This document shows positions 2,552 through 27,783 of a stretch of 64,000 nucleotides of DNA, in pieces. Below the pieces are notes generated by a model. The model worked only from the letters and a program-made list of their open reading frames with translations, was not told the origin of the DNA and did no database searches. Position numbers and translations under genes: made by a program. This DNA is from Erigeron canadensis. Lineage: Eukaryota > Streptophyta > Magnoliopsida > Asterales > Asteraceae. Numbering within the stretch: the first letter of the stretch is position 1; each line of letters opens with the position of its first letter. The DNA lies in assembly GCF_010389155.1 (NCBI RefSeq), contig NC_057761.1, forward strand, positions 15,378,501-15,442,500, given 5' to 3'.

Positions 2552-2767
2552 GTTGTTATACATATAAATTGATATAAGATAACATGGAATTGAACGCCTT
2601 TGTGTACTTCCAAGCAGTCTTATATGAATGTATATGTGTAATACAAGATGTTGATTACAATTTTGTTACACCTGTGTCAAAAACTCTCAATTGTTGATAT
2701 GAGAAGCAAAGGATTGAAAGCCTTTGTGTACTCCTGAGTTGTCTCATCTTGAACAATTGATTGAGTT
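2552..2767 (+). other. Two stem-loops with the shared loop (element A)
   Basis: Stem-loop 1 spans about 2561-2636: the left arm starting CATATAAATTGATATAAGA pairs with the right arm ending TCTTATATGAATGTATATG over close to 30 positions with few mismatches. Stem-loop 2 spans 2682-2767: the left arm AACTCTCAATTGTTGATATG pairs with the right arm that ends CAATTGATTGAGTT. The loops are almost the same, TTGAACGCCTTTGTGTAC and TTGAAAGCCTTTGTGTAC, while the stems are unrelated to one another. The same loop recurs in E and D. Such changing but still paired stems argue for a selected RNA or DNA structure. Role unknown. Confidence 0.75.
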
Positions 2768-5150
2768 CACTTTTCATAAAACCTGTTTTGATTTCACACA
2801 AATCATTTTTGCTCCACCTTTTCTATGGAAATCTGTTTGATCTATCGTTGCATAGATTAAGGGGGAGTTTGTGATTTCAAAAAACTCTGTGAAAATTATT
2901 TGTGCAATTTATGGAGTTTGTGTGTGACAATGTGTTTTTAAAACATTTTTTTTTTCACATATAATGATTTTTTTTCAAAAACATTTAATTCAAAGGAAGT
3001 TCGGTGTTTAGTTTGCACAAGAGCGACTAGGTTTTTCTCAAAATTCTACTCCATGAATTTCATCATTGCCGATGAGTTCTAACCCCAAAGTATTCATTTT
3101 TTTTTCATTAGAAAGTAAGGGTATTTTGAGAGATGATGAATTCGTGCAACTACGTTGGAGGGAGTAAAGTCGAAAAGTGAGAGGTTATGGTGATAATGTT
3201 GTGAGAAAAGGGTTAAAAGAATTGATACCCTTCCCTAAAATTCTCAAATCGCCGGGTAAAACACATTTCTATCGGATGTCATTTGTTGATATCTCGGTAT
3301 TGAAGAAGCCTTCATGGACCCAATGAAGCGATGCACATCTTTACCTAACCACTCAAGTGTTTCTTAACAAATGCTTGTTTTATTTCTCACGCAGGTTTTC
3401 TCATTTCTATTGACTCTTCATTTGGAAGACGTTGATATTGAAAAAGGGTGACACTCTGCTCCAGTCCCCGACTTCATTTGATCACTTTGTGTCTAGAGCT
3501 CTCGTGATTGATCATTAATTTGATGTTATTCATTCTTTAGGACACATTTACGTCATATCTTTGTGATATACATGCTTATCTTTGTGATATAGCCGGAACA
3601 TTTGTAGTAATATCTTAAATGATATTTCACGATGATCAAATGGAAATCCTACCATTGCTAACATCATTTTCAGCTTTGAATGTAGGTCTCATAATTGCAT
3701 TTGTGTAATTATTGAGTTAACAAGAAGTCTATTGTGACCTTGGATTTTTTTCCTAAAAGTCTTTAAGGATAGTAGAACATGGTTATCGAACGCTTAGGTG
3801 ACACTGACCATGGTTTACATTCTTTGAAGCATTCTTGAGGTTGAAAAGCCAAAAGACCGAACTATGTTAGAGGTTTGCTCTGTGCTTTTCTCAATGATAC
3901 ATAGGAAATTCGATAAATGAAAATACATTTCCTTCGGTCATTTCATTAATCCTTTCGATTTTTGAATGCAAACGGATCATTCTTATCCGGTTTCTTTTCT
4001 CATCACCAAAACACAGAAAACATCAACACCATGATACAATGTTTATCCCAAACAACTTCAATCTTACATTTTAGTCATCCATAGGAACAATTGGGTTGGT
4101 TTATATGGATAAATTGATGTTTTGTTGGTTGATAATTCTCCTTGAGCATAATGTCTAGATTTTAGTCATAATTATTTCTTTTGAACAATCGATTCAATCA
4201 ATGTTTGCATAATGACATTGGTTCTCAACTTTGTCATTATGAGGGGGAGAAAATAGTATGATTGATTATTGATTAGGAGAAGAAATTATAATGATTAATA
4301 AGGACAAGGAGAAAAGTTTGTGTTTGGTTGTTTCAATTGCTTTCAAAGATACTATCATTCAGCTTCTTGTTAAAAGTTTTCAATTTTATTTGGAGTTCTT
4401 TTCTCTCAGATTTCATTTGTGATCATTCTTCTTCAAAGTTTGTTTGATTTCATTCCAAACTGCAAAGGTTCCAAATTCAACTTGAAGACTATTCATCTCG
4501 AAAGAAAAGGATATACATTCAAGATTTAACGAAGAGACTGTGATTACTCATGAATTGAGGGGGAGCATGATTAATTCGTAAGAGACTTGTCAAAACCTCA
4601 TTCAAATATTTACTCTCAAAAGTGCCTTTAAATGATGTGACAAAGATCAAAGCTTCAAAGGACAAAAGATTGAAGATTCGAGACAAAGAAGATAAGCTTC
4701 AAAAAGAGTCTTCATCAAATTAAAGATCTTCAAGTCATATAACAACACTTTACCAAAAGCTACATTGTACATATCAAGGGGGATAGTACATATCTCTGAA
4801 AAATCATTCCAAGATTTCAAAGAAAAGACTTCAAGATTCGAAAATTGAAGAATTTAAGACAAGTTCATACCTTCCGCACCTCAAAAGACAACTCTGATTC
4901 ATGATTCAACAATTTTCAAAGATTCAAAACATACACACACTCATCACTCTCTGTTCTATAAAAACACTGATAATCAACAGATGATCTAACTTCAAGAAGT
5001 CCAAGACCAAGACTGAATCAAGTTCTCCAAAGACAATGAGAAAGCATTGAAGACTTGTTTCCACACACCAATTGTCTTCATCACCAGGCTCATCAAATTC
5101 ATTCCTACAAGACAAAACAACACGTACTTCAGATCTTACAATATATCACT
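2768..5150 (+). other. Non-coding 3' region of element A with repeated G5 tracts
   Basis: No convincing ORF is seen in this 2.4-kb stretch, and no trace of the aORF found in D, E and F. It holds polypurine-like tracts at 2859-2868, 4241-4250, 4557-4566 and about 4776-4783, all variants of AAGGGGGAG, before the terminal tract at 5151. Repeated G5 tracts after pol are also seen in D and E. The rest is AT-rich sequence without recognisable features. Confidence 0.6.
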
Positions 5151-5160
5151 AAGGGGGAGA
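5151..5160 (+). promoter_or_regulatory. Polypurine tract of element A
   Basis: AAGGGGGAGA ends one base before the LTR start TGTTAGAAATCC at 5162, the normal position of the primer for plus-strand DNA synthesis. D has the equivalent tract before its 3' LTR. Confidence 0.9.
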
Positions 5161-5161
5161 A

Positions 5162-5484
5162 TGTTAGAAATCCAAAAATAGTGATACATTGTAATTTAAG
5201 TTATGGACTTACTTGTAGTTAAGTCATGAGTTGATGATTTCTAAGGTTGAGGGGCTAATAGTGAGAATTAGCATAGTTGATGTGTTTAGACTATAAATAG
5301 CCCTCAATCCCTTAGAAATCATAACAATAAGCATAACTCTTGACATATATTCCATACCATTACACCTGAATAACACACACTTAATCTCAATTCTCTCTCA
5401 ACACACACACAAACACCAAGAACACACACACTAACCAAACGCCATTGTTGATGTGAATTCGAGTGATAAAATCGTGTTGTTACA
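5162..5484 (+). repeat. 3' LTR of element A (323 bp)
   Basis: Begins TGTTAGAAATCC and ends GTTGTTACA. It holds a TATA box CTATAAATAG at 5291-5300. It aligns along its whole length with the LTR of element B at 10831-11151 in reverse orientation, with scattered substitutions (roughly 88-90% by eye), so both belong to one family. The ends are set by the polypurine tract on the left and by the abrupt start of reversed B coding sequence on the right. Confidence 0.9.
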
Positions 5485-8400
5485 TATGCCACAACCAAGA
5501 ATTCTTCGAAGTAGCTTTTGAAACAAGACAGATATTATCAGTTGGTTGGTTATCATCAAGATTAACTGTGAAAATATTATCTTCACGATCTCCGCATAGG
5601 ATATCAATTCCATCTAGAGTTTGGACTTTGCACAGAGATTGTCGAAAAAGAACTTGAAGGTTGTTGTCACAGAACTGTCCAACACTGAACAAGTTATGAC
5701 TCAGACCTTCAACATAATGAACTTTCTTAATGACAATTCCGTTTCTTTCTATATCTCCATAACCTAGAATTGGAGCGAAATTGTTGTTTCCGAAACGAAC
5801 AGTTCCCATGAATCTTTCAACAAAATTCTTGAGCAATGATTTATTGCCAGTCATGTGTTTTGAACGCCCGGAATCGAGTATCCATACACAGATGGTTATT
5901 TCCTGCAATCAAAATTTAACCGACTTTAGGTACCCACTTAAAGACGGATCCTTTGTGGTTAGTTAATACAGGCAGGGGGTATAACTTAGGAGATGCATAC
6001 AAACATGCTTTCGAATCAACATACTTGTTAACAAGCACATTATCAACAAGCACATTTGGATTAAACAAACAAATATTAACACACGAATCAAAAGTAACAT
6101 GCCTACCACCATTCAAACCATACAAATAAAATCGAGAATTAACATTGTTTACACCATCACAAGGCATTGCCTTGGCATCATTAACATTTGTTTTCAAAGA
6201 TGACTTAAAAGATAAATTGTTTGAAACATCAGAAACAAGCTTCATCTTACTACCCGCTTTTCTCCTTTGTCTTTTCTTCTTTTTCTCAACTTTAGTGATC
6301 TTAGGTACTAATGACTTAGCTACCCATTTAGACTCACTAATCAAGCTCTTTCCACTTGTTGGATTGGCACTAAGAAGATTAGAATGAGAGTTTTGAAGCA
6401 CTTATATCTTTTTAGACTCTTTTGAAGGTGCAGAAACTTCTTGTTTCTTAGGTTTATCGTGAGAAAACCAGCCATATCTATCCCTATATCTAGTTGCACC
6501 ATTTGTAGTATCCCTAGTTAGCAAGACAGAGCTAGTCCTAGACACTTTAGAAATTGAACTAGAATGAGAGCTAGACGAAGAAACATTTAAATTGATCACC
6601 AGAAGTTTCACTTTGTTGTATTTGATTTTGGGAATGGTCTCAACTTGTTTGGTTTTAACATGCTTTTCCGGGGTAGGACACTTTGTTTTTAACTTATTGA
6701 TTCTTGGTTTGGTGACAGTCTTTGGTTCAGTCTTGATGAGTTTGGAAATAACCCGTTTCTTTGAATAATATGAAGTTGGAGCTTTGAAAAACGATTTTGG
6801 AGATTCCTCTTTTGATTTAACTTTGATTTTAGTAGATTCAATCTTTTTCTCAGTTTCAGAATCAAAAACATATTCTCCCTCCATGAATTTATCAAAATCA
6901 TTTTTGGTGAATGGTGAAACTGGAGAGATTTTTGAAAAATCAAGAGTCTTGTTTTCCAACTTCACACTATTGGTAATCTCAGGAATGAAATCAACATGAA
7001 CTGACACATCTTTGGTTTCACAAGAAAATTGAGTAGAAGTATCAACACCTATACTAGCACAAAGCTTAGGGTGAACAACTAACTCTTCAGGAAACTCACA
7101 AGTGAAAAACCTAAAGTAGTACCATATCAAAACTAAACTATGCGCAAGTTCGTCATAAGATAAATCAGATTGCACATAATCATCAGCTATTACAGTAGCA
7201 GCATTTTGACATGAACACTCAAGAGAATCAGTCAAGGTTTGGGTGGAGGAAACAGTAGATGAAACACAAGTAGTCTGAGTGGAATGGTCTACTAAAAGAC
7301 TGAAATCAGTTTGAGTAGAAACATTAACACAAACTTTCTTGATATCAACAACAACTGATTCATTCTTTGAATTCGGTTTTTGAGACTGTAGATTATTAAT
7401 AAATTTTTGTTAAGATTCCACCTTTTGTTGTAAACCTTCTATTTGTTTTTCCAAAAATGTGGATGGAACATACAATTTAGTTGGTTTAGGTGGGGAAACG
7501 ACAGATTCTTGGTTTTGAAAATTAGATGCAATCTCTTCTAATTCAAAAATTGATGACTTTTTCGTTTCGTAAGAAGTATTGATGGCATCATAATTAATCA
7601 AAAATTTATTGTTTTGAATTTTCTCAACTTCATCAGTCTCAAATTCGTCATCCAATGGACGAATGAATTGTTGAACCATACCAAGTCTTAAAAACTTTTC
7701 ATCATACAAGGGTTCGATCTTGTCTTTGGCTTTTTGCAATGGAGTGATATTCTCAAATCCCAACCCAAAAAGAAGTTCTGATCTATCAATCTTTGACTTA
7801 TTGAAATAGGCAGTGAAATCCAAAAGAGGGTTTTGTTCAACTTTGTACAACTTTTCTTGATAGAAAAGTATATTCTTTTTATGTTCCTCAATTTGTCTTT
7901 CAAGATTTTCAATCTTAATGCCTTTTAAAAAACAGTTATGATTTAAATCAGAAACTTTTCTTTCAAGTTCAATTGTTTTTGGTGTAGCTTCTTGAAGCTT
8001 CTTATTCAGAATATCAACATCCATTTGTTTCGCATTTGCACGAAGCCATTCATTGGTCTTTTGAACTTCAAGATCTTGATTGGCTTTTTCAAGATGAAGA
8101 ATGGTCTTTTCTAAATTATGACACTTTTCCAATAACTTAGAGTCAGGAGACGCATTCATTTCACATTCTTTAACCAACATTTGTTCTTTATAATTTTGAA
8201 ATTCTTGTTTCATAGCATCATACTCAAAAAGTAGTTTAGAATTTTCTTCAAGAAGTTTTGTGTACTCCCTTTTTGAAAATAAAATGCTATTTTTCAATTT
8301 CTTGTTTTTGTTGGCTAAAGAAGTGTAATGATTCGTCAAGTTTGATAAGGCAATTCTATAAGACTCTTTATCCTTAATTGATGAAAAAGTAGAGTCGAGA

Positions 8401-9710
8401 TTTACCTCATCATCGGGATATTCCTCGTCAGTGTTGTCAGTCTCCATCACTTTGTCTTTGTTCAACCTTGCCATGAAACATATATTGGCAAACAGATCTT
8501 CCTCTTCATCATTAGTCAGTAAAAGTCACTTGTCATCTTCAGCAATCAAGGCTTGACCGGCTTCAACTTGCTTTGCCAGGAGCATCTTCTGCTTGTAGTA
8601 TTCATAATTCTTCTTGCGAGGCAGCTTGCAATTCACAGCAAAATGACCAGGAATTCCACAGTTGTAACACTTTTTGTCAGATGTCTTTTCTTTATCCACG
8701 ATTTATTTCTCAGTTTCTGTTTTCTTGTCTCTTTTCTTGAAACCAGTTGTTTCACCTTGTTCAAAACTCTTGTGATGATATTGTTCCTTCTTTGGAAATG
8801 CACTTGTTGATGAAGTTCAAAGATTGTTGTTAGTTGGCCTCGCTTTGAAATATTTTTTCTTGAAATGCTTAGTCACAGCGGCAAGAGCTTGGTAGAATTC
8901 ATCAGGAACACCATCTCTTGTTGCCAAGTAATCTTCACCCTCCTCATCAGACGAAGAAACAACGGTCATTTGTCTTTTAAGAGCCTTAGAAACCTTTCGT
9001 TTAACAACCAATGCCAAAGGATCAGTAGATACAACTTCTGGCATTTTGTTGAGTGAATATTTGCTTAGAACTCGTGGCTCATTCAACTTGAAAGATTCAT
9101 AAAGAGTATAAATGGTGAATTTGGTCAGATCTTGATGTTGTTTGATTTGAGTCCCATAATCTTCCCATTCGGGACCAAGTGCTTTGATAAATTTGATGTT
9201 CAGCTCAATCTCATCTTTCTTGACTTTGTTCTTTCTCAGTTCATTGATCACATTGCAAAATCTGTAGTAGACGGACTCAAGAGATTCATTTGGTGATTTC
9301 TGAAAATTGTCAAACTCAGTTAAGACATTTGTCAGTCGAATTGTTGAGGTTACATCAGAACCTTCCATTTGTCTAGCAACTTCATCCCAAATCTCCTTTG
9401 CTGTGTCATAAGAATCAACTGAGCCATAAATCTCATCAGGAAGTGCTTGATACAAGCATGATCTAGCTCTGTTGTCAGCAGCAGTACGATCTCTTTGTTC
9501 GGCATTCAAAAGATCAGGAGTCAAAATAGCACCGGTAGTAGGATGACGATGCATAGCAAGTCCATTGATGATTGAGTCTTTAAGCATGTGACCATTAGTC
9601 TGACGTTCCACATAATCCATGAACCTTTTCTTCCAAAGTCCATAATTACCACGATAAAGAACTGGTGGTCTTGTATCAGTGCCCAGAGACAATGCTTCAC
9701 GAGTAGTCAT
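5485..9710 (-). pseudogene. Gag-protease of element B with stops, truncated by A
   Basis: Gag starts at 9710 (MTTREALSLG) with the copia UBN2 capsid region: LYRGNYGLWKKRF near residue 20 and GSDVTSTIRL further on, open to 8817. A CCHC zinc knuckle (CYNCGIPGHF...) lies near 8650-8690 between in-frame stops. Then come a long coiled-coil-rich part (8474-7410), a basic Ser/Lys-rich part (7235-6402 and 6401-5916) and the aspartic protease with DSG in WILDSGRSKHMTGN near 5860. The frame breaks off at SWLWHM, inside the pre-integrase domain. Stops between 9710 and 6402 are in one frame; a frameshift lies near 5910. Gag would package RNA and the protease would process the polyprotein, but this copy cannot make either product whole. 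Confidence 0.85.
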
Positions 9711-10817
9711 TTGAAATTGATTTGAATTGAGAATTGAATTGATTTTTGAAGAAAATATGAAACTATGAAACGATCTAAATTGAAATGAAATGAAACGATC
9801 TGTATTGAAATGAAATGAGACGATCTGAATTGAAACGATCTAAATGTATGAATGAAACGATCTAACTTGAAACGATCTAAATTGAAATGGGAGTAATACA
9901 ATTTAAAATTGAAACGATCTGTAGAATTTGAAGAAAAATTTTAAGTATTCTGAAATGATTTGGGCAGAGTTTTGGTATGAATTTAAATGAAATGAATTGA
10001 GCAAAACCAATCATGAAGATCGGTTACCTAAGAATATTATGATTCCCAAACACAACTCTTCACGAATTACTTAAACCAGATAATGTTCAAGTAAAACTTG
10101 AAACGATTTAAAAGAGATCGTTCTGGTCTCAAAGAAAACTGAAACGATCTAAAAGAGATCGTTTTGGTTTCTTTTCAGGATTTCTCAACAACTTGATTAA
10201 TTTCAAGAAATTGAATTGACCAGAACCAATCCAAAGGATCAGTTAGCCACAATCAACTCTTCTCACCACAACCACACTTGTCAAAACGATCAAATTTGAA
10301 TCGTTTTACAAGCCACACGACTGAAATGTATGTACTAAGGAAAGAAAAACTAAAACGATCTAAATGAGATCGTTTAGCTTCACACAGTCGTCTTCAACCT
10401 CTGAGAATGAACAACTCCATTGACGATTTTTAAAACTTCAATATCTTTTGATTTTCTGAGAATTGGAACATGAAACCACTTGCAAACAGTTTGTTTTCAC
10501 CTCAGCAACGATCCAATTAACACAATTTAGCTTATAACACAACATAATTAAATCCCAAATTTTAGCGCCAAAAACTCAAAATCTGAACTTTTGATCCAGA
10601 TCGAATTAGAACACGAAACTTGAGAGGATTATGTTATTAACTATGAGAAATCGATCGGTGAACAAACATTTGTGATTTTATGTGATTTGAGAGGTTATTA
10701 TTGAATTTTCAGTGAGAGAAAAAAACGAATAGAAACAGGATGAAAACAGAATTAAAGGTGAATGTGTGATGATTTGTGATTGAATTCAGTTATGGATCGA
10801 GATCAGAATGATGTTTT
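9711..10817 (-). repeat. Leader of element B with ACGATCT/AGATCGT dyad array
   Basis: This is the untranslated leader between primer site and gag. Half-sites GAAACGATCT crowd at 9770-9930, and fuller dyads such as AACGATCTAAAAGAGATCGTT occur in part or whole near 10100-10125, 10141-10165, 10289-10312 and 10353-10375. The same word is found in E but not in D or F. The rest is AT-rich and has no convincing ORF. Confidence 0.75.
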
Positions 10818-10828
10818 CTCTGATACCA
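10818..10828 (-). promoter_or_regulatory. Primer-binding site of element B (initiator Met tRNA)
   Basis: On the minus strand TGGTATCAGAG follows two bases after the LTR end. This matches the 3' end of plant initiator methionine tRNA, the usual primer of copia minus-strand synthesis. Confidence 0.9.
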
Positions 10829-10830
10829 CA

Positions 10831-11151
10831 TGTATCAACATGATTTTATCATTTGAATTCACAACAACAATGGCGTTTGGTTAGTGTGTGTGTTCTTGGT
10901 GTTTGTGTGTGTTTTTAGAGAGAATTTGGATCAAGAGTGTGTTATTCAGGTGTAGTGGTATGAGAATTGTTCAAAAGTTTAGCCAGAGTTATGATTTCTA
11001 AGGAATTGAGGGCTATTTATAGTCTAAACTAACCACCTATGCTAATTATCACAATTAGCCCCTCAACCTTAGAAATCATCAACTCATGATTTAACAACAA
11101 GTAAGTCCATAATTTAAATTACAATGTATCACTATTTTTGGATTTCTAACA
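10831..11151 (-). repeat. 5' LTR of element B (321 bp)
   Basis: On the minus strand it starts TGTTAGAAATCC at 11151 and ends GTTGATACA at 10831. A TATA box (ACTATAAATAGCC) lies at about 11011-11024. It is the same family as the LTR at 5162-5484 but in the opposite orientation. Confidence 0.9.
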
Positions 11152-11504
11152 TGTATTCTCTCCAGAATGAAGTTCAAATTGAAAATGGCCTTGTCTACGA
11201 AGTTCTGGAGATTTAACTTTGCTTTAGTCCTTGATGAAGATGGATCATGTGGTTGCACAAAGATAATAGATCTCCACATGTCAAATAAATATGATTCAGC
11301 AAGATCAACATCTACTGTGAGAGCATGAGTAAGAGGATGATTGTGGAAGATTGCTGAAATGATTGGAAAGCCGGGTGCATTGAAAGGATCATTCAGATAT
11401 CTATTATTTCTCATATTGATGGAATTTCCGGCTTTGAGAATTTCCTCAATCGATTCATTAATGGCAATCTCTTCATCATGTCTAACCTCTTCTTGATGAT
11501 CCAT
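11152..11504 (-). pseudogene. N-terminal fragment of the aORF of element E
   Basis: Starts with ATG at 11504 (MDHQEEVRHD) and is open for about 117 codons until it meets the LTR of B. The stretch FPIISAIFHNHPLTHALT followed by ESYLFDMWRS matches FPIITEILNHHPLNIALT and EKYVFDLWES in D (about 21440-21330). In D and F this is the start of a protein of about 1,340-1,450 residues encoded after pol. The family is not recognised from memory beyond being a copia-associated additional ORF. Loss of the rest is due to the B insertion, not to decay within the visible part. Confidence 0.75.
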
Positions 11505-11590
11505 TATTTTTTATAATTTTCTGTTTTTAAGACATAAAACTTTTAATACACACAAAAATAATATTTGAATAGCAAATAACAAGGTTCACA

Positions 11591-11890
11591 CAAACAATTT
11601 ATATAAGATACAAGGAGGTTCACAAAGGCGATCAACTCAGTGTATCCTTTATAAACCATTTGTTATGAGAAAATAAACAAAGAATAGTTAAATACATATT
11701 TTCCATATATAAGTTTACAAAGAAGTTCACAAAGGCGATCAATTCTTTGTACTCTTATATACTTTGATATGTATATAACTTTAAAAATAAGATATAATCA
11801 TATAAGTATGATATATTTGAGAATAATAAGGAAGTACACAAAGGCGTTCGATTCCTCGTATTCCAAAATATATGACAATTATATGATTAT
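11591..11890 (-). other. Three stem-loops with the shared loop (element E)
   Basis: Three hairpins follow each other at about 11591-11665, 11692-11775 and 11794-11890. On the plus strand their loops read TTCACAAAGGCGATCAACT, TTCACAAAGGCGATCAATT and GTACACAAAGGCGTTCGATT, the reverse complements of the loop in A. Their stems differ: TTTATATAAGATACA with TGTATCCTTTATAAA; TATATAAGTTTACAAAGAA with TTCTTTGTACTCTTATATA; and a 39-bp arm starting ATAATCATATAAG paired with one ending ATATGATTAT. They end about 90 bp before the aORF start codon, so in an aORF transcript they would lie in the 5' leader. Role unknown. Confidence 0.8.
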
Positions 11891-11949: not shown

Positions 11950-12665
11950 AAAATATAGATCGTGTTAAAAGGAAATGATCTAAATTTAGATCGTTCTGAG
12001 TAAAACTCAGTTAAAAGGAAATGAAACGATCTAAATTTAGATCGTTTTGAAAGATTTAAAGAAAAATAATGAAGTATGGAAAACTGAAGATGAAACGATC
12101 TAATAGAGATTGTGTTAAACCTTTATTTGAGAAAAAGTTTAAGTATGGGAAAAAGGAAGTAAAACGATCTAAAAGAGATCGTTTTAAGTTTCTCATATGA
12201 AAGAAAAAAAATGTTAAGTATGGGAAAGAAAAAGTAAAACGATCTAAAAGAGATCGTTTTAGGTTTTAAAAAAACTTTTTGAAGTGAAGAAAAATGAAAC
12301 GATCTAATTTAGATCGTTTTGGAAAAATTTTGAGAAAAATTTCGCTTCTTCTTTAAAGATTTTCTAACACTTAAAAATATAAAGTGAAATCAAATTCATG
12401 ATCTCTCCTTACACTTAAAAGTATAAGATTTGAGCGAACCGAATTCATAAGAATTCAGTTACCCATCAATCGAATTCCAAACTTTCTTTCAAACCACACA
12501 GCGTTCAGACCCAAGAACGATCCAAATTAGATCGTTTTGGTCTTAGTCTCAAGGGATTAACAAAGAAATAACATGAAGTGAACAAAAAAGGTGAATGGTA
12601 AACTTATTTTACTTCCAAGTCGTTTAGAAATCAAAACGATCTAAATTTAGATCGTTTTAGAATCA
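11950..12665 (-). repeat. ACGATCT/AGATCGT dyad array before the aORF of E
   Basis: About eight copies of a dyad built from AACGATCT, a short A/T spacer and AGATCGTT occur, for instance near 12030-12050, 12163-12186, 12237-12262, 12296-12321, 12514-12540 and 12635-12660. The same word fills the gag leader of this element (15400-15840). Both non-coding regions of E thus share one word. Confidence 0.8.
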
Positions 12666-15379: not shown

Positions 15380-15840
15380 AGTATTTAAAAAATGAAACTA
15401 GAACGATCTAAATTAGATCGTTTTAGAATCTTAAAAAATTTTCTAAGTGATGAAGAAGAAAGAAGAAAGAAAAAAATGAAATGTTCTAAAAGGAATCGTT
15501 TTGAGGAATTGTAAAAAAGAGTTAGAACGATCTAAATTTAGATCGTTTTAACAATTTTGGGTGAAAAATTTCTAAATATGAAAACTTTGAAAATTTGGGC
15601 AAAGTAACACAATGATTTGGAAGTTTTTGAGCAAAACCAATCTCAAGGAGATCAGTTACCCAAGGAAGTGTGTGATTCCCAATCACAACAACTTCAGAAT
15701 CACGATCCACACACCACACAATTCACACAAAATTACACAAGCTAGAACGATCTAAATTAGATCGTTTTAACTTCAAAATGGCCTAAAAACTAGAACGATC
15801 TAAAAGAGATCGTTTTAGTTCCTCCAACAGAGATCGTTTT
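15380..15840 (-). repeat. ACGATCT/AGATCGT dyads in the gag leader of E
   Basis: Dyads GAACGATCTAAATTAGATCG (15401-15425), and similar ones near 15525-15550, 15744-15770 and 15796-15815, plus half-sites, sit in the leader between primer site and gag-like ORF. From here to 16280 the rest of the leader is AT-rich with no supported gene. Confidence 0.75.
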
Positions 15841-16856: not shown

Positions 16857-17132
16857 TGCAATGTATGTAATTGAGCTTAGCTATGTGTTTTAGTGTGTGT
16901 TAATGGAGTTCGTGTGTGTGTAAGTGTTTGCAATATGCCAAGAGAGAAAGTGTGTGAGTTGAAAGATTGGATTGCATGAAATGTGTTAAGGTTACAATAT
17001 TAAGCTATGGAGGGGGCTTTATATACTTCTATACAATTTACACTAGTCCCCCTTCCATACTTATGAGAAATACAAACAAACACAAAGTATTATAAACATA
17101 CAAATCAACTACTAGAAGTTATATTTCTAACA
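16857..17132 (-). repeat. 3' LTR of element D
   Basis: 276 bp, starting TGTTAGAAATATAAC on the minus strand at 17132 and ending CATTGCA at 16857; TATA-like TATATAAAGCC near 17015-17030. It is preceded by GTATG, the target duplication. Confidence 0.93.
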
Positions 17133-17183: not shown

Positions 17184-20100
17184 TTATGCTCGAGTATTTG
17201 GTCTGTTTTCGTTTGGATGCCAGAACCAGTTGTCACCTTCAGGTTTATCTTCGGGGACCACCATGTTTGCTTCATAGTCTCTAGGAGGAATGTTATGTGG
17301 TCCCAAAACATTACTAGGTTCATACTTGATCCAGCATCCTCCCCTTTTTCTATCAACATACTTGGACTTCTTAACATTCTTTTCTTCCCTTATCATTTTA
17401 ATACTCTCTCTGAAACCCAGTCTCTTATCAATCTTGCTAATTACCTTATCAAGTAGAGCTTTCTTTTGATCAGACTCTTCATCTTCAGACAAGCATAACA
17501 GCACATTCTTACAAAAATCCAGGGTTCCATCAGAGTAAGAAACAAGGTCGCACATTTTAACAAAGATCTTTTTCTTTCCGCTGTTAAGAAATATTACTCC
17601 AAGTGTTGGTTTCTTGATAACATGACCAATATTCAGCCTTTCTATATCTTCTGTGTAAAGACTTTGATCTGGATACGGAACATTAATCTTCCTCTTAACC
17701 AACTCAAACCCAATCTAAAAATCTTCCAATGATGCATGTTGAATAACGTTGGACATGTATCTCTTCACGGCATCAAAGGCAATAAGATCTTCACGATACC
17801 TTTGAATAGCATTCACATAGTGGTTGTAGAGGAAAATTATGTCATCAACCGGCAAAAGTTTGAAGTGAGCTTCATTGAATCTATATATCAAGCCGTTTTC
17901 TCTCTTGACATGAAAACAAGGTATAGAGATGTGAGTCTTTCTAATCAAGATCACTCTGATCAGCACCACAATCCTGAACTTTCTCTGATCTTCAAGGATA
18001 TTTGGATTGTAGCTATCAGCAAGTTTAAGGAGAGATCTGTATTCTTCAACTTGTTTTGGATTCTTAAACTTGTGCATAGCGGCAAATTCTGGTCTTCCTA
18101 CTTTGACAACCTTAGTAGCTCCGCAGAAGATCGAAAATGCTCTTTCCTCCAAAAATCTTGACTTGATTGCAGCTTGTTTTGGCTTAATGCAAAGTGCAAC
18201 CATTCTTGCTTGATCTCTGAGAAAGTACCCCCTATTCACAAAGTTCCATTGTTCTTCAATTAGTTCTGCAGGGAAGTAGTCTGGAAATGGTTCTTCTTCA
18301 GATATGATAGCTTCTCTTAAAACTTGTTTAAAGGTTAACTTCTTAAGATCTTGAGAGACAGCTTCAGGAGTTTTTCTTAGCTCATCAAACCCTTCAAAAT
18401 CATTGAAAGAATATTGCTTCGGAGTTGACACAGATGGAATTGTTGACTCTTCAGTTGCATTTCTGCCTGAAGGACCAATTGTAAAATAGTCAAGATCATC
18501 GAATTTTTCAAACACTGGTTCATCAGTAGATCTTTGAGTCTCTACAAATTTCGGAACACTCAACACAATGTTGTCTTTGATTGCTTCTGCGTCTGCCTCT
18601 CCTTCAGCAAATTCAATTAAAGCCTCATCTACTATATCTTCATCAAGAATCTCTTCTTCCTCTTCTCCTTCAATCTCTCCCATTCCAAACACGTCTTCTA
18701 ATCTTTTCCTTATTTCAACCCTATACTCAGCATTCTCAACTTCTTCAATATTCAAACCAAGTTATGTCCACATTTCATTAGATTTAGCTCTACATTTAGC
18801 TAATCTTTCCAATTCAGCCCGATCTTCAATTCCTTCTTCTTGTCCACCTTCATTCCTTCCCCCCATCTCTACATCAACACTGGTTTCTTCAACTCTCGCC
18901 GAAGTATCATCAACATTAGCTTGACCATCTCCTTAGGTTTCCCCCTCGGGGTGATCATCTGAATCAGGATCATCCCGTCTCGTAGAAACCGAGGCCGGTC
19001 GGCAAGACTCTAGAGCAATTAATCTTAGTTCGAAAGCAGCAAGTTTGGCATCATATTCAGCCTTCTGAGTTTGTACTTGATCTTTCAAAGCTTGGACTTG
19101 TCGTGCATGCTTAAATTCTCTATCCCTCAACTCCAAAGCATTCAATACTCCCCTATCAATCATGTTAATGCAATCACCTTCAGACCTCAAGATTTGTAAT
19201 AAATGATTGCATGTGTTGTCTTTTTTTTGTTGGTTAGAAGTTGATGAAGTTTGTTGGGGTGTTTGTGTTGTTTGAAGTTGTTTTTCTAAAGATGGTGGAA
19301 CCAACCTGGAGGTTGTTGGCACACTTGTGGTGTGACCTAAACTAGCTGAAGCTGTTTCAGGATTTCCTGCAGATCCTTGGGGTAAACCCTCACTAGCAGT
19401 TTCAGATTCATTGGCTTCACAACCAAAATCAAGTTGTGTCCTAGACTGTGATAAATCACTGTCCGGGACTTGTTGTTGGGTAACACCATTCACAACACCG
19501 AGGTCACTGAGAATGCCCATTAATACAGTCTCAGGTTGATCCTGAGAAACAGCAGTGTCACCTTGGCGTTCATACTGTCTCTCAATCTCGGTTTGAGAAC
19601 TGTTACCTGCGGCTAAAGCTGGCATGATGTTAGCTAAGGCAGGACTTACAAGCTGTCCTAGAGGGTCACACAAAGTGGGTCCCTCTCTGCTTGTTCCGGC
19701 ATTAGTACTAAACTGAGCATGCAGGTCCGTGTCCCTAGGAGATCTAGACTCAAGTGTACGAACTGAAGGCGAGAGGTGGGGCTGGTCCTCTCTTATTTCA
19801 ATACTCTCATCCTCCAAATGAGGAGAGTGTGGTGAGCATGGTTGTTCCCCGTGTATTTGTGAGACTAACTCCTGTTGTGAGGAGTCAGAATGGTTAGGAG
19901 AGTTTTCTACATGCAAGAGTAGGGAGCTCTCGACTTCTACCCTAGGGTTGTCATCCCGGATAGACTCATTTGTTTCATTTGTTGGAGGGCAAACGTTTTC
20001 TTTACGCCCTTGTCCTAGCCCAAACCACTCAACCTCTCCAGTATTTTCAATTCCTCCCTCATTCCCTCATTGTTCCTCCGGCACAACTTCATCTCCAGTG

Positions 20101-21517
20101 CCTTGATCCTCAGTATGTACATCCGATATCACACTTGCAATGGTTTGTGTGATATGAACATCATCAAAATCCATCGAGGTACCAAAAGATTGATCAATAT
20201 TAACTGTACCCGACTCCTCTCCTTACAAACTAAAAGATGAAGCAAAATGTCTCTTATTGTGCTTCATCTTGGTGATTTTTAACACACCAGATTTGGATTT
20301 AATCCTTCGAGCTTGCATCTTTAATCTTCTCCCAGGAATTGGAGGAGGAATATTTGATGTTGGTTCAAGAATTGTTGACAATTGCGGTGGAGAAAGAATT
20401 GGTGGAATTGGAGAAGAAATAGAAGGAAGTGGTGTAGAAGGTGTTGTTGGAATTGATGGTGTAGATTGTGATGGTGGTGGTGGTGTTGTTTGAGAAGATG
20501 TGATATTGGGTGTGATGGGAGATTCAAATGACACTCTTTTTGTTTTTCTCCTTTGTTGCTCAACAGTCCCCTTTCCTTTGTCCCCCCCCCCTTTTTTTTT
20601 CCTTTTGTAATCCTAGGACCCTCACTTGGCGACCTATGCATAGTTGGGGTAGGAGTCTGTCGGCTTTCAGACCCCGTAACTGTGTCTAACCACTCTCTAT
20701 AACTCCTAAGATGGGGACGGTTAGCCGGTACAAGATTAAGCAAAAATGGAGGAATAGGAAATGGTTTAGCAACATCACTCCCTGTACCTCTTAGATTTGA
20801 CTTATACATCGCAATGACACATTTGAAGTTGTCATCTAAATTGGGAATAATATCGGTGGAATCAAGAACATCTTCAATTATTAGAGTGAAAAATCTGATG
20901 TATGGAATGTACTTTCTTTCTTGCCCATCTTTAGCCTTCACTACTTGAGCCATTTTCTCCCAGATGATCTTTGCATAATCACACTCCATATTGTGAGTGA
21001 CTGCATAGTATAATGACAAAGAATGTTTTGTCATAGCATCAATTCCTTTCTGAGAAGGCATCAAGCATGTATTCAGTACATTGTACATTGTGTGCCACAA
21101 TGTAGCCACATTCATCCTTTTAAAATCTCTCAATGAAGACAACTCTCCTTCATATCCCAGTGCTTGAATTGCATTCAACATTTCTTCTACTGAAGGTAGT
21201 TTTACATATACTTCATATTCAGGGAATCCCAATATAGCTCTGAATTGTTCCAAGTTGAACTTGTACAAGTAAAATTTTCCTTATGATTCCAGAGTATATT
21301 GAAAGAAGTCTTCTGATTTCTTTCTCTTATCAGCGTTGATGTACTCAATAGATTCCCACAAATCGAAAACATATTTCTCTGGAACTATAGCACCATTAGT
21401 GAGAGCTATGTTCAATGGATGATGATTAAGAATCTCAGTGATGATTGGGAATTTGGATGCAAATGGTATATGTAAAGCTTGATTAGCTTGCATCTTCATT
21501 GAGGTGTGCTTCTTCAA
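17184..21517 (-). pseudogene. aORF of element D: large protein of unknown function, decayed
   Basis: About 4.3 kb of coding sequence lies between pol and the 3' LTR. The N-terminal domain (21517-20600) holds FPIITEILNHHPLNIAL, EKYVFDLWES, FRAILGFPEYEVYV and a helical stretch to REWLDTVTGS; the same blocks, more diverged, occur in E and F (there LRQILGFPQ). Then come a Pro-rich tract, a Gln/Ser-rich linker (19916-18933), an acidic stretch (GEIEGEEEEEILDED) and a C-terminal domain to 17184 (VIFLNSGKKKIFVKMCD), weakly matching the C-terminus in F. One frameshift lies at a C10/T10 run near 20581-20602, with in-frame stops near 21280, 20220, 18930, 18758 and 17714. No catalytic motif is recognised. 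SIRE elements often carry an extra ORF here, sometimes called env-like, but no signal peptide or convincing membrane segment was seen. Confidence 0.75.
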
Positions 21518-21676
21518 ACATTGTCATCTTTTTATGATTTTTAAGAAAAGCCTGAAATAAAACCAAATTGACCAACATTGACCAGAAAACAACTTTAGAC
21601 ACCACTCAAAGAAATATACACATTAGAACAACTTGGACACATTATTTTCACAAACACAATGTTTCGTACATATATT

Positions 21677-21692
21677 AAGTATGAGACAACAA
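21677..21692 (+). repeat. Target-site duplication of the LINE, left copy
   Basis: AAGTATGAGACAACAA is repeated exactly at 27601-27616. A 16-bp duplication is typical of L1-type target-primed insertion. The duplicated sequence is one arm of a stem-loop of element D. Confidence 0.93.
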
Positions 21693-21693
21693 T

Positions 21694-21756
21694 GTTGGTC
21701 GGATGGTTTGACATCTTGTGCTTTATGAGGTCGAGAGTTCGAGCCTCTCTCACCCC
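21694..21756 (+). promoter_or_regulatory. tRNA-like head at the 5' end of the LINE
   Basis: A D-arm-like GTC-GGATGGTTT-GAC (698-712 of this kilobase, i.e. 21698-21712) and a T-arm GAGAG-TTCGAGC-CTCTC (21733-21749) with a five-pair stem and seven-base loop starting TTC are spaced like the A and B boxes of an RNA polymerase III promoter. The acceptor stem is not closed, so it is not a tRNA gene. It may be an internal pol III-type promoter or a captured SINE head. Confidence 0.55.
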
Positions 21757-22201
21757 ATTCTTATTTTCTAAGGGAGTTTTGGTGGAATTTAGAAAACCCT
21801 AATTCTCTCTCACCTATGGCGATTCTGTTCTTCTTCTTTTTTCCCTGATTTCGATCTTAATTGCCTTGTAGATATGTCCCTCTCACAATCTGCGTTTCCT
21901 TTTGGTTATGTGGATTGTTGAAGTGCAGGTCTGGGGTGGTTTAATTTCGTTTTTAGAGTTTTATTTTCTTCTTTTCGTCTGCTCTTCTCCTAGTTTCGAC
22001 TCTTGTTAATTAGGGAGGTTTTGATCGCGGCTAACGAGATTAGTTCAGCTATATCTATTGAATCTTCTTAATTGATTTAGACTTCGTTGCTGTGGAGCAG
22101 GGTTTGGTGTTAGGGTTTTTTGTTTCTTTGGTTGCTGTTCTTCACGTAGTATACCAGAATTGTTTTCTTTCGCTTCTTGTGTCTGCATGGTTTAACGAGT
22201 T

Positions 22202-23734
22202 ATGGAGGGATCGAATACTGCTGCTAGAGGCTTTGTCCCTAGTGGTGGATTAGCAAGTAAAGTTAAGAGAATTGATGGTAAAACGATGGCTCCGGTGAGA
22301 GGTATCCTGAAAAACCCTAACCCTAAAAAAGGGTCGGGATCCAAGGATGCTAAGAAAGATGACGTAGCTGTGGATGGTAGTGGTCATAGTGGGGACAATA
22401 AGGGTGTGACTGGTGGTAAGACCAGTCAGGCTACTTCGGTGCCTTTGGCGAAAACCAATAATGATAGTGTGGGCAATAATGAAGAGGTTGATGAATATGG
22501 TTTTGTTAAGGGTATGCCAAGAACAGCTGATGACAAATTAGTACATCAACTAGGTCATGAGGAGGTTTCAAATAAAGATGCTAAGGATGGTCATGCAATG
22601 GGGGATCATAGCAAGAAAATGGATGAACTAGTGAGTTCTGAGGTGGATGCTGTTAGTGATTCTAATCAAGGTGCATTTGTTGATGCTAATAAGGGTCAAT
22701 CTTATGCAGCGAAACTTAAGGTTGGCTCGACTAAACAAGTGGTAAATTTTAGGAAAATTGTGAGTATGGTTACACATGAAGATGTTGATGTGGTGTTGCC
22801 AAAAGAATCGGTCCGAATCGTACAAGATAAGTTTGCTAACACCATTGTAGGTTATTTTCTTGGTACAAGGCTTGCATATCCAATTCTAGAATACTTTGTT
22901 AAATCAATTTGGGCTAAATTTGGGTTACAAAAGGTAATGATGAATGCAGAGGGATTTTTCTTTTTTAAGTTCTCGGATAAGCAAGGGGTACAAAATGTTC
23001 TTGATGGAGGACCATGGGTGATTCGAAATATGCCTTTATTTTTAAAGACCTGGTCTCCTTCAGCGAAATTGAAGAAAGAGGAAATAAAGGAGATAGCAGT
23101 GTGGATTAAGATTCATAACGTTCCAATTGCAGCTTATTCGGAAGATGGCCTTAGTATGCTTGCTTCCAAATTAGGTAATCCTAAATTGCTAGACTCTTAT
23201 ACGACTTCTATGTGTACTGGATCATGGGGATGGAGTAGTTATGCTAGAGAACTAATAGAAATTTTAGCTGATAATGAATTTAAAGAGTTATCCATAGCTA
23301 TTCCTAATTTGGAAAGAGAAGGTTATACAAAGCAAACCATGAAGGTCGAATATGAGTGGAGACCACCTAGATGTGCTCATTGTTGTATCTTTGGTCACCA
23401 AAATAATGAATGTCCTGATCAGGTCCGTAATGTTAAGCAAAAAGCCAAGGTGGATGAGGATGGATTTATTGAGGTGACGAATCGGAAAAAAGGGCAAAAT
23501 AAGGGGGGAATTAATCTGAATAAGCAAAAACCAAGATTTGAGTATCGTCCTATAAACAAACAGAAACCTGTAGTGGATAAACCGAGTACATCAGGAGCAG
23601 GGGGGACGGAGAAATTGGTCAGCTTTTTGAACCTGGGGATGGCAAAACTCAAACACAAGATGTTTCTAGAAAACGAGAAAGTAGCTCAGGCTGAGGGGGC
23701 AAGCACTCCCGGTAATGCAGGTTTAAATGGGTAG
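22202..23734 (+). CDS. LINE ORF1: DUF4283 / CCHC zinc-knuckle RNA-binding protein
   Basis: Open for 510 codons from ATG at 22202 to TAG at 23732-23734. The first 180 residues are Lys/Gly/Asp-rich and unstructured. Residues about 205-330 form the DUF4283 domain (VGYFLGTRLAYPILEYFV, GGPWVIRNMPLFLKTWSP, VWIKIHNVP). A CCHC knuckle CAHCCIFGHQNNEC follows near residue 398, and the C-terminus is basic. In plant L1 elements this protein binds the element RNA and acts as chaperone in the ribonucleoprotein. The overlap ATGGGTAG with ORF2 is the usual tight junction. It is the least damaged ORF of the LINE. Confidence 0.92.
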   Translation: MEGSNTAARGFVPSGGLASKVKRIDGKTMAPVRGILKNPNPKKGSGSKDAKKDDVAVDGSGHSGDNKGVTGGKTSQATSVPLAKTNNDSVGNNEEVDEYGFVKGMPRTADDKLVHQLGHEEVSNKDAKDGHAMGDHSKKMDELVSSEVDAVSDSNQGAFVDANKGQSYAAKLKVGSTKQVVNFRKIVSMVTHEDVDVVLPKESVRIVQDKFANTIVGYFLGTRLAYPILEYFVKSIWAKFGLQKVMMNAEGFFFFKFSDKQGVQNVLDGGPWVIRNMPLFLKTWSPSAKLKKEEIKEIAVWIKIHNVPIAAYSEDGLSMLASKLGNPKLLDSYTTSMCTGSWGWSSYARELIEILADNEFKELSIAIPNLEREGYTKQTMKVEYEWRPPRCAHCCIFGHQNNECPDQVRNVKQKAKVDEDGFIEVTNRKKGQNKGGINLNKQKPRFEYRPINKQKPVVDKPSTSGAGGTEKLVSFLNLGMAKLKHKMFLENEKVAQAEGASTPGNAGLNG

Positions 23735-26700
23735 TTTACCTTCCTGGAATATTAGGGGGCTGAACCGCTCGCTAAAACAAAAGGAGGTTCGCCAGGTAGT
23801 GTTAGATAATTATCTTAATGTTTGCGCCATTATTGAGTCCCATGTTGATGTCTCTAAGCTGTTTAATGTATGCAAAAAGATATGTCGTTCTTGGGATTGG
23901 ACCTCTAATGGTTCTTTATGCTCTAAAGGGACGAGAATCATTATTGGCTGGAATGTTGAGGTTGTTGATGTCATGGTTATTTCACAAACTGATCAGGTAA
24001 TTCATGTACAAGTTATCTTTAAGGAGGATAAAAAGTCTCTTTTTTGCTCGTTTGTGTATACTGATAATAATTATAGGAAAAGAAGAGATTTGTGGCAGAA
24101 TTTGTGTGTGCATAAAGCTTTTGTTCATCAAAATCCTTGGGTTCTTATGGGGGATTTTAATTCTACGCTTAATTTGGAAGATTGTCTTTATGGCTCTTCC
24201 ACTATAAGTACTAGTATGAGGGATTTCAAGGATTGTGTTGAACAGCTAGAAGTATTTGATGTGAATAACACTGGATTACACTATACTTGGAGTCAGAAGC
24301 CTAAAAACGGAAGTGGGATATTTAAAAAGATTCATCAGGTAATGGGAAATATGAGTTTTATTGATGAATTTCCTGCGGCTTGTGCATTATTTCAACCGTA
24401 TAGAGTTTCGGACCATTCCCCTTGCATTTTGAAACTTCCCTAAGTTACAAGAAGCCGTCCTAAGCCGTTTAAATTTGCCAATTTACTTGTTCTTAAACCG
24501 GGTTTTCATGAAGCTATTAAATGAGGCTGGAACCTACAGGTGGATGGGCATCATATGTTTCAGGTTGTCAAGAGATTGAAAGCTACAAAGTCTCATCTGC
24601 GAAGCTTATTACAAAAGCAAGGAAATTTTCATGTCAAAGTAGCTAACCTACGAAGCAAACTAGATGATATCCAGGTTGCTATTGACATTGATCCGACTAA
24701 TACTTCATTGTTAGAATAGGAACTGGTGTGTCTAAGGGATTTTAAAAAAGCTCAGTTAGATGAAGAAAGGTTTCTCAAACAAAAATCAAAAGTGGAATGG
24801 CTAGGAGTTGGTGATTCTAACTCGGCTTTCTTCCATAATTCTGTCAAAAGTAAAAACCATCGAAGTCGGATTGAAATAGTTCGAGATAGTAATGGGATAT
24901 TGCATGAAGGTGGGGCTGCTCGCAAAGCTTTTGTAATTCATTACGAAAATTTTTTGGGTAAGGCAGGTCATATGCCTCGTTTTCCTTCTCCTGATCTATT
25001 TACTAATAAATTGTCGAATAGTAAAGCTACTTTAATGATAAGACCTATTACGAATGATGAGATTAGAAAGGCAATGTTTTCTATTGGTGAAGATAAAGCA
25101 CCTGGACCGGATGGATACACATCGGCATTTTTTAAAGGTGCGTGGGAGGTGGTTGGTAATGATATTTGTCTTGCATTACAAGAGTTTTTTAGGAATGGAA
25201 AGCTGCTTCAACAGGTAAACCATACTTTCATTGCTTTAATCCCTAAAGTCGCTACTCCTGCTTGTGTCACGGATTTTAGGCCAATTTCTTGCTGTAATAC
25301 TCTTTATAAATGTATAAGTAAGATATTGACTGACAGAATGAAGGATGGACTACATGATCTTGTTAGCATTAATCAATCTGCATTTGTTCCTGGTCGTAGG
25401 ATCTCTGATAATATCCTACTAACTCAGGAACTTATGCATAATTATCATTGTCAGGTAGGTCCACCTAGATGTGCTTTTAAGATAGACATTCAGAAAGCGT
25501 ATGACACGGTTGATTGGAGGTTTTTGGAGTCTGTCTTGCATGGATTTGGTTTTCACAGGAGAATGGTTAAGTGGTTAATGGTTTGTGTTTCTTCTGCTTC
25601 ATTTTTGCTAGCTATTAATGGTAAAATCTATGGTTATTTTAAAGGGCAGCGAGGACTCAGACAGGGAGATCCATTGTCTCCATATCTGTTTACTATTGTT
25701 ATGGAAGTTCTGACGTTAATCCTTCAGCATTCGACTAACAATATGGCTAGCTTCAGATTCCATAATAAATGTGAGAAGGAAAGAATTATTAATTTGTGTT
25801 TTGCAGATGATCTATTTCTATTTGCTAAAGGGGATGTGAATTCAGCTACTACTGTTATGAACGCAATTAATGATTTCAAAGACATGTCAGGATTAGTTCC
25901 CAGTATGCCTAAAAGCAAGGCTTTTTTTCTGTAATGTGGCGGACCATGTTAAACAAGCTATACTTACAATTATGCCATTTGAAGAAGAGTCACTTCCGGT
26001 TCGATATCTTGGAGTTCCCCTTATCTCAACAAGACTTCTTCATAAAGATTGTGCTATGCTAATTGAAAAGATGGAGATTCGTATTTCCAATTGGAAGAAT
26101 AAATCTTTATCTTTTGCAGGTCGTTTACAGTTGATAAGGTCAGTTCTTGCTTCGTTCCATGTTTATTGGGCGTCGGTATTTATTTTACCAGCAAGTATCA
26201 TTAAAGAGCTAGAAAAGAAGATGCGAGCATTTTATGGTGCCAAGGTCCAATGGTAAAAGGCAAAGCTAAAGTCTCTTGGAAATCGATATGCTTACCCAAG
26301 AATGAAGGTGGATTAGATATTAAGAGAATTGATGAGGTGAATAAGGCGCTGATGGTATTTCATATTTGGAGTATTTTAACCGACAGGGATTCGTTGTGGG
26401 TTAAATGGATTCATTCAAACAGATTGAAAGGAAGGAGCTTTTGGGATGTCAATCAGCCTATAAATTGTTCTTGGGGATGGAGGAAAATATTACAGCTTAG
26501 GGAGGCTATTCGGCCATATATATGGTCAAAGATTGGAGATGGAATAAACACTTCTGCTTGGTTCGATAGGTGGTCTAATGAGTGTCCATTAAGTCGGCAT
26601 GTGTCACCAAGACAGATTAAACAAGCAGGCTTTCAATTAACTTCAAAAGTGGCTGACCTTATTCATGAAGGTAATTGGAATTGGCCAACAGCGTGGCTGG

Positions 26701-27399
26701 ACCTTTTCCCAGTGTTAATAAATGTATCCCCGTTTAATTTACATGATAATCGTAATGATGAACTTGTATGGAAAGATTTGGATGATACTGAACACTTGTA
26801 CTCTTCAAAGGTGGTATGGAACTCGGTGCGCACAAAGGGGGATGAAGTTGCATGGGCTAAAGCGATTTGGTTCACGCATTGCATCCCCCGACATGCTTTT
26901 TTTGATTTGGGTTATTGCAAGGCAAAAGTTGAAAAAGCAAGACAAGATCATTCAATGGAGAACAAGCTATAACTTGTATTGCTGCTCGTTATGCAAGGGC
27001 GGCCCTGACTCTCATTCTCATTTGTTTTTTGAATGCCCTTTTTCAAAACAAGTTTGGACAAGAATAAAAGTTATGGCTGAGGTTCCTCACATGTCGAATT
27101 CTTGGAGTGATATTTTAAAGTGGCTTACTTTGAAGTCAGCTTCAAGATCAGCGAAAAATGTTATTGGTAGATTATTAGTTGCAGCTACAGCATACTTTAT
27201 CTGGCAAGAACGAAATAGTAGGCTCTTTACTTCTCACGCAAGGTCTCCGGACAAGATTGTGGAACTCATAGTATCAACTATTCGGTTTAAACTGGTGACG
27301 CTCAAGTTTAAAAATACAGTTGTTGTAGATCGTTTGCTGCAAGCTTGGAATATACCACGAGACATTGTGGTCAAGCGCTTGCAGGATGATAATTTTTGA
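23727..27399 (+). pseudogene. LINE ORF2: endonuclease-reverse transcriptase, broken
   Basis: Starts with ATG at 23727. The AP-endonuclease-like domain (to 24440) has WNIRGLN, IIESHV, MGDFN and SDHSP, so its catalytic residues are largely present. In-frame stops follow at 24441, about 24522 and about 24717. The reverse transcriptase (24726-25934) has DKAPGPDGY, FRPIS, GLRQGDPLSPYLF and the catalytic FADD near 25799-25810. Frameshifts near 25932, 26252 and 26900 split the rest, which ends with the zf-RVT region (CCSLCKGGPDSHSHLFFECP). No RNase H domain is seen. It nicks target DNA and copies RNA in place in intact elements; this copy cannot. Confidence 0.9.
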
Positions 27400-27600
27400 T
27401 ATACAACATTAGTTTTTATTTGTATTTACTAATGGTTGGTCATTTGGATAGCTAAGTTAATTGTTTGCTTTCTGCTTGTTTCATATATGCATGGCATGTC
27501 GTGCATATAAACTAGTATGGTATTCCAACCATACTACTTGATTTGTAATGTTTTTTTGGTGATGGAATGCAATTTACAGGGGTATACCCATTAACCAAAA

Positions 27601-27616
27601 AAGTATGAGACAACAA
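27601..27616 (+). repeat. Target-site duplication of the LINE, right copy
   Basis: Exact copy of 21677-21692. Confidence 0.93.
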
Positions 27617-27783
27617 CTGTAGTACACAAAGGCGTTCAATACCTTGTTTCTCGCCCTAATATATATAAGAAAAAATTACAATTTATAGAATCACATAAGT
27701 ATTGAAAGATAAGATAACAAAGGTTACACAAAGGCATTCAATACCTTGCTTCTTACCCTAATACTCATAAAAACTATAAATTG
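27617..27783 (-). other. Stem-loops with the shared loop in D, one split by the LINE
   Basis: The loop reads GTACACAAAGGCGTTCAATA at 27620-27641 and TTACACAAAGGCATTCAATA at 27724-27743. Stem-loop 2 spans 27679-27783: the left arm starting CAATTTATAG pairs with the right arm ending CTATAAATTG over about 40 positions. Stem-loop 1 has lost its left arm to the LINE: TATATTAAGTATGAGACAA is at 21671-21689 and its partner TTGTTTCTCGCCCTAATATA at 27645-27664. Rejoined across the insertion the arms pair well. Loop identical to A and E, stems unrelated. Confidence 0.75.

Follow-up and report, generated by a model that had tools for sequence, protein, structure and literature searches.

A fixed tip carried on a stem of free sequence typifies hairpins that proteins recognise, as in the iron-responsive elements, and hairpins of this design form arrays in the linkers of three Ty1/copia retrotransposons (A, D and E) lying in the 64,000-nt stretch of Erigeron canadensis DNA analysed here (the window). 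The arrays share with iron-responsive elements the fixed tip, the covarying stem and sometimes a tandem arrangement; no Rfam family reached its gathering score on either strand of the window. In kind of element, the closest described system is that of the repeat-motif (RM) boxes and linker motifs of Sireviruses (Bousios et al. 2010, PMC2829016), likewise found in a linker upstream of an env-like gene and accompanied by many AGGGGGAG tracts. RM boxes, however, are short perfect palindromes varying from element to element, whereas the arrays combine a fixed folded tip, long covarying stems and an RNA bias; the available part of that paper makes no mention of a hairpin array. A functional analogy, with no sequence relation claimed, is offered by the constitutive transport elements (CTEs) of MPMV and MER11, structured RNAs of the 3' part which, in the available part of that work, allow unspliced genomic RNA to exit the nucleus without a viral adaptor (PMC11379458); those studies were not made in plants. 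The dimerisation and packaging signals of Ty1/copia elements (BARE, PMC3735527; Ty1, PMC5454406) are, in the portions available, analogous stem-loops marking genomic RNA, but Ty1 has its signals at the 5' end whereas the arrays are tandem and lie 3' of pol. Searches of the open-licence literature on Sirevirus hairpins and related signals gave, among the titles listed, nothing recognised as this array, and a 10-mer text search of papers gave, among the matches listed, other subjects by title. From sequence, we judge the chances about even that the arrays act in cis as a tag of unspliced genomic Sirevirus RNA, serving its export or packaging.

At the core of every hairpin is an 18-mer, TTGAACGCCTTTGTGTAC, present at 7 places in the window when up to 3 mismatches are allowed (0.04 expected from shuffles) and always in the sense of its own element: 2590-2607 and 2714-2731 on the + strand (element A), 11834-11851, 11725-11742 and 11618-11635 on the - strand (element E), and 27724-27741 and 27622-27639 on the - strand (element D). 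The preliminary description had reported seven stem-loops, two in A, three in E and two in D, and all were recovered at those places in element sense. Coordinates given below are the spans of a model, from which the bit scores were also taken; D2 is interrupted by a long interspersed nuclear element (LINE).

2567..2629, + strand: hairpin A1 (76.8 bits; its fold reaches further outward than the span)
2692..2753, + strand: hairpin A2 (73.2 bits)
11812..11874, - strand: hairpin E1 (65.3 bits)
11703..11765, - strand: hairpin E2, UCGC/GUGA mini-stem (72.4 bits)
11597..11657, - strand: hairpin E3, UCGC/GUGA mini-stem (68.4 bits)
27703..27763, - strand: hairpin D1 (62.6 bits)
27599..27661, - strand: hairpin D2, 3' arm split by the LINE (66.5 bits)

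Pairwise identity among the copies was 54-81% over 65 columns, indicating a common ancestor. The stems had been called unrelated in sequence yet matching between arms: the matching stood, and a lack of relation could apply to no more than the outer stems, the inner ones being homologous.

The 5' and 3' arms of the 7 copies were then re-paired in all 5040 arrangements. The true pairing ranked first at 30 and 40 nt, and the arrangements as good, counting the true one, were 2/5040 at 25 nt, 4/5040 at 20 nt and 25/5040 at 15 nt; with the LINE kept in D2, the result was 4/5040 at 25 nt and again first at 30 and 40 nt. On a MAFFT alignment of the copies with a structure of 20 pairs written by hand, 86.9% of pairs were formed as against 77.8% in shuffles, and 9/20 carried double-sided changes as against 3.6. 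None of 500 shuffles matched the pairing, the double changes or the covariation score, and 15/500 matched the count of pair types. RNAalifold, unaided, gave much the same structure (16 pairs, 7 with double changes). Related by descent, the inner stems have diverged through paired changes. These changes contradict the notion that the array is a functionless by-product, made of decayed palindromes of MITE-like (miniature inverted-repeat transposable element) origin or of tandem duplications, and an alignment artefact would have to account for the arm-swap result. Tandem copies with inner stem sequence in common fit such an origin, but the arms are better kept than the spacers between copies (0.83 vs 0.72; 0.85 vs 0.83), and the genome counts and G-U bias given below also speak against it, leaving it the barest of chances.

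Predicted folding energies with 40 nt on each side were -32.1 (A1), -26.4 (A2), -29.6 (E1), -31.0 (E2), -28.3 (E3), -24.5 (D1) and -13.5 (D2) kcal/mol. When flanks were shuffled with the 18-mer held constant, the corresponding z values were -6.1 (A1), -3.0 (A2), -6.1 (E1), -6.9 (E2), -4.4 (E3) and -3.0 (D1), and +0.9 for D2 with the LINE in place; with 25 nt on each side, A2 (18/300 shuffles as good), D1 (43/300) and D2 (226/300) were individually not significant. The poor fold of D2 was due to the splitting of its 3' arm by this insertion:

21677..27616, + strand: LINE in D2, including its 16-bp target duplication, one copy at 21677-21692 and the other at 27601-27616; reverse transcriptase (RT) domain at 24720-25934

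Joined across the LINE, the empty site gave -28.0 kcal/mol and the stem continued outward, so that all seven copies are predicted to fold as hairpins once the LINE is left out.

Read in element sense, the tip is UU-G-A-[ACGC]-CUUU-[GUGU]-A-C, its order being stem, bulged UU, G-C pair, A.A mismatch, mini-stem ACGC/GUGU and apical CUUU; in E2 and E3 the mini-stem is UCGC/GUGA, with the A-U pair turned to U-A. The "invariant loop" of the preliminary description is therefore a recurring element, but not an unpaired loop, since a 4-bp mini-stem folds inside it. This anatomy bears on two alternatives. Tandem hairpins in a full-length RNA would suit a kissing-loop dimerisation signal, a function suggested earlier, but two features weaken this reading: the apical CUUU lacks self-complementarity, and E2 and E3, the copies of UCGC/GUGA type, have lost the GUAC on the 3' side. 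Complements of at least 10 bases of the 18-mer were not found elsewhere in the window either, and we regard loop-loop dimerisation as highly improbable. The hairpins might otherwise be substrates or decoys for the host small-RNA machinery, given that maize Sirevirus palindromes attract small RNAs (according to the available part of PMC10760457, on Bousios 2016), but such processing needs no fixed tip with a compensated mini-stem, and this role is only slightly less improbable.

The search was extended to the genome of this one species (426,212,758 bases, 356 contigs), where the 18-mer occurred at 4057 places with up to 3 mismatches, against 302 for the backwards pattern, and a degenerate core, TTGANNGCCTTTGTNNAC, matched exactly at 1758 places, its reversed control at 1. 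Among the 100 core matches listed, taken in order from the beginning of one contig and with their remaining letters fixed by the pattern, the outer mini-stem pair was A..T in 78 and T..A in 22, with no other combination, and the next pair was C-G in 87, U-G in 4 and unpaired in 9. A pattern with the two inner pairs freed had 1535 places against 21 for its control; among the 100 matches listed, likewise limited, the G.U pair was constant in 100/100, and the innermost C-G had become U-G in 7 and was broken in 2. These copies are related by kinship, so that 100 places are not 100 independent events.

A divergent set was obtained by clustering: the loci L012-L111 (many overlapping) plus the window yielded, at up to 4 substitutions, 243 instances, 176 of them distinct, in 26 clusters at 85% identity. 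Five of the 26 clusters were dropped before alignment (A3), three as chance hits (L037 minus strand 1133, window + strand 39291 and window minus strand 21576, in reversed coordinates), one as a truncated copy (L017 + strand 1801) and one as a diverged fourth hairpin (L030 minus strand 2539), and 21 were kept. In these 21 copies, 77.8% of cells were paired vs 70.6% in shuffles, 38 cells were doubly changed vs 15.0, and the covariation score was.261 vs.141, each with 0/500 shuffles as good; 11 pairs showed double changes vs 7.9 (14/500), and pair types were not in excess (21 vs 21.4 in shuffles, 326/500). Structures slid along the alignment scored.075-.133. Below the UU bulge, the second pair was A-U in 12, G-C in 5, U-A in 3 and C-G in 1, without exception, and the tip G.U was constant in 21/21 rows. 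The outer helix was 64% paired, the families being by eye partly out of register, and RNAalifold unaided predicted only the 9 innermost pairs. Arm swapping on 20 copies, D2 being excluded owing to the LINE, gave z -8.0 at 40 nt (0/100000), the own arm being the single best partner in 10/20 rows at 40 nt, 9 at 30 nt and 3 at 20 nt.

Because copies chosen by the motif would bias the estimate, occurrence was assessed in copies found with the last 150 residues of A pol; these were the best 150 of 7591 candidates, and so are close relatives of A. On contig C1 below 16.4 Mb, 12/15 pol-chosen copies (A included) carried the motif downstream among the matches listed, and the model R1 added one of the remaining three, L114, but not L115 or L116. 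The array was present in 14 of a further 17 pol-chosen copies, hand-picked across contigs, hence in 27/32 overall; the five without it (L115, L116, L121, L131 and L133) did not align to the A linker across the hairpins. Motif conservation between copies was not used as evidence, since those copies had been picked by motif, and the set called A-type also includes D-type copies. In IMG/VR, 11 stretches contained a 16-mer of the motif, but the best model score was at most 22.6 bits and they were taken as chance; relatives of A RT were not found there. A possible fourth, diverged hairpin, with a tip of the GAACGC-TTAG-GTGAC type, was noticed in the A linker at 3776-3813, where the window model stayed below 11.8 bits; the variant recurs at L030 (minus strand 2539) and L115 (713), L115 being one of the five copies just mentioned.

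To establish the strand, G-U and A-C were scored alike in the arm alignment and the 18-mer was excluded. G-U exceeded A-C by 31:6 in the window, where shuffled arms gave 68% G-U (composition-corrected p 0.02), and by 88:23 in the 20 divergent genome copies (p 0.006). A raw G-U vs A-C test (38:7, p 3e-6) was set aside, because composition alone gives 68% G-U in shuffled arms. The element-sense fold was stabler than the antisense one in 7/7 window copies and 23/26 genome clusters. The excess of G-U over A-C favours RNA in element sense, although the corrected p-values are modest. It is this retention of G-U but not A-C, together with the invariant tip G.U and the sense bias of folding, that makes a DNA-level signal improbable, that is, palindromes that would act as protein-binding sites or transcriptional regulators, as may the palindromic boxes next to the hairpins of all three elements, which are thought regulatory in the available part of PMC2829016. 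Arm swaps, paired changes, the G-U excess and the controlled genome-wide counts together bear out the earlier claim of selection on RNA structure, and the contrary outcomes named beforehand failed to appear: covariation was present, and the motif, far from being confined to one palindrome, lay in very many elements.

The host elements were characterised from the following features.

2..2164, + strand: 3' part of element A pol (open for 720 codons from the edge of the window, stop present)
2297..2510, + strand: repeat boxes of A, four palindromes lying 5' of the hairpins
5152..5159, + strand: terminal AGGGGGAG tract of A, flanked by an inverted repeat and followed by the long terminal repeat (LTR) copy at 5162-5490
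11973..12656, - strand: palindromic boxes of E, 5' of its hairpins (AACGATC..GATCGTT)
27878..28910, - strand: palindromic boxes of D, 5' of its hairpins (TGCCGAG..CTCGGCA, with variants)

Multiple linker tracts, an inverted repeat, AT/TG and a TATCAGAGC junction are Sirevirus marks in the available part of PMC2829016, which also describes repeat motifs, thought to be regulatory, in LTRs and upstream of ENV. The linkers of A, D and E contained 4, 4 and 1 AGGGGGAG tracts (E being incomplete), as in Sireviruses. The terminal tract was followed by AT/TG in D (AGGGGGAGATTG) and by AA/TG in A, the 3' end of E lying outside the window, and A and D folded in keeping with an inverted repeat enclosing the terminal tract and the start of the LTR. 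At the 5' LTR junction of D and E we found TATCAGAGC, preceded by TTTGG and TGTGG vs the published CA/ATTGG. D is full, with LTRs at 41075-41350 and 16857-17132 (96.7% identical). The hosts are Sirevirus-like (SIRE) Ty1/copia retrotransposons with the array in their linker. A and D were 71% identical over RT-RH (RH, RNase H) and 51% over the preceding part, and in each of the three comparisons among the A, D and E linkers the hairpin stretch was the best match. In E and D the same box occurs in the 5' leader (15396-15838; 40179-41154) and in the linker, its sequence differing per element, whereas PMC2829016 places such boxes in LTRs and ahead of ENV.

The array had been placed between pol and an additional open reading frame (aORF; the env-like gene). 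This position holds in full for D only; A shows no aORF, and no pol frame was seen upstream of the hairpins of E. The relevant features are these.

11094..11510, - strand: N-terminal part of the E aORF frame (residues past ~111 lie in the LTR that breaks the aORF at ~11151)
11521..11523, - strand: putative splice-acceptor CAG ahead of the ATG of the E aORF
17184..21527, - strand: D aORF region, several broken frames, first ATG at 21527
21552..21554, - strand: putative splice-acceptor CAG ahead of the ATG of the D aORF

In the A linker the longest run without a stop was 82 codons, and the sole tblastn match there, at E <= 1, was to the LTR-derived tail of the broken aORF of E. Two A-type copies likewise had no linker aORF match save to that tail, their stop-free stretches of >200 codons sitting in the flanks. 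Among 40 overlapping loci, surveyed 1.5 kb to each side, 21 had pol and no aORF, 13 an aORF and no pol, 6 neither and 0 both. A CAG lay shortly upstream of the aORF start in 9/9 aORF-bearing sequences shown, D and E of the window included. By a home-made acceptor score, the D and E CAGs were in the top 0.2% and 2.7% of window AGs, ranking 2/99 and 3/76 within their linkers. The retained CAG, the end of the hairpins ~115-155 nt upstream of the aORF ATG in D and E, and the aORF just downstream at 13/40 loci would suit a control of this gene by the hairpins, through regulation of the splice acceptor, internal ribosome entry or an enhancer. Since A-type elements bear well-formed hairpins without a detectable aORF, however, the aORF-translation signal put forward earlier is weakened, and the related element F has an aORF without hairpins; control of the aORF is therefore unlikely in our view, albeit with an appreciable chance. 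As to the frames themselves, the start of the D aORF at 21527-21339 (ATGACAATG) is out of step with the next frame; its N-terminal part resembles the E aORF (43% over 63 residues), and a piece of the D aORF had no homologue in the protein collection. The LTRs at 5162-5490 and 10827-11151 belong to one family, lie in opposite orientation (89.6% identical) and flank an antisense gag-bearing fragment, the second interrupting the E aORF.

A tag of genomic RNA would work as follows. The array, mostly two or three tandem hairpins with a diverging stem and a fixed tip, would be bound at its tips by a candidate protein, tandem copies raising the avidity. Lying upstream of the CAG, inside the putative aORF intron, it would be lost from a spliced aORF message and kept in the genomic RNA, and would therefore mark the full-length RNA. 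Because A-type elements retain the array without an aORF, its task is probably with the genomic RNA, the likeliest being nuclear export or Gag packaging. With confidence somewhat short of even, we suggest that the arrays constitute an undescribed plant Sirevirus RNA family, serving as a tag by which unspliced genomic RNA is identified (a CTE counterpart or a packaging signal 3' of pol) and kept also without the env-like gene. Several points weigh against this proposal. In LTR elements, the packaging signals known so far are mostly located close to the 5' end, and one species was sampled. The acceptor score was our own, and its best AG in D lay inside the 5' arm of D2 rather than at the CAG. 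Element F, 60-67% identical to A, carries an aORF and no hairpin array (best hairpin score 13.8 bits or less), so the array is not universal. The hairpins are, besides, not the sole structured stretches of the linkers, others being as structured: by folding z, the repeat boxes of E equalled or beat the hairpins, and in D 0/8 best-folding windows were hairpin windows, the LINE flank being excluded. ENV expression in plant elements has been called unproven (PMC2829016, Discussion, in the part available). With a fixed-tip RNA element backed by covariation, the partition of Sirevirus RNA among translation, env-like expression and packaging becomes directly testable, the >1000 core places in one genome supplying natural variants, and this RNA element, were it to act in export, would bear on the movement of intron-containing RNA in plants.

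Other features of the window were recorded in passing. The long aORF of F (58212-62281) gave a sub-threshold match to the Pfam family Transposase_32 (30 bits vs a cut-off of 45). Reading frames at 52517-53553 may be pieces of a plant terpene synthase gene, which they resemble. Two large inverted repeats, at 53810-54169 and 55291-55595 (arms of 167 and 140 nt, 89% and 87%), are MITE-like or foldback in appearance, and a repeated ACTGCGGCGCAGT palindrome lies at 34040-34330, in an insertion within element D.

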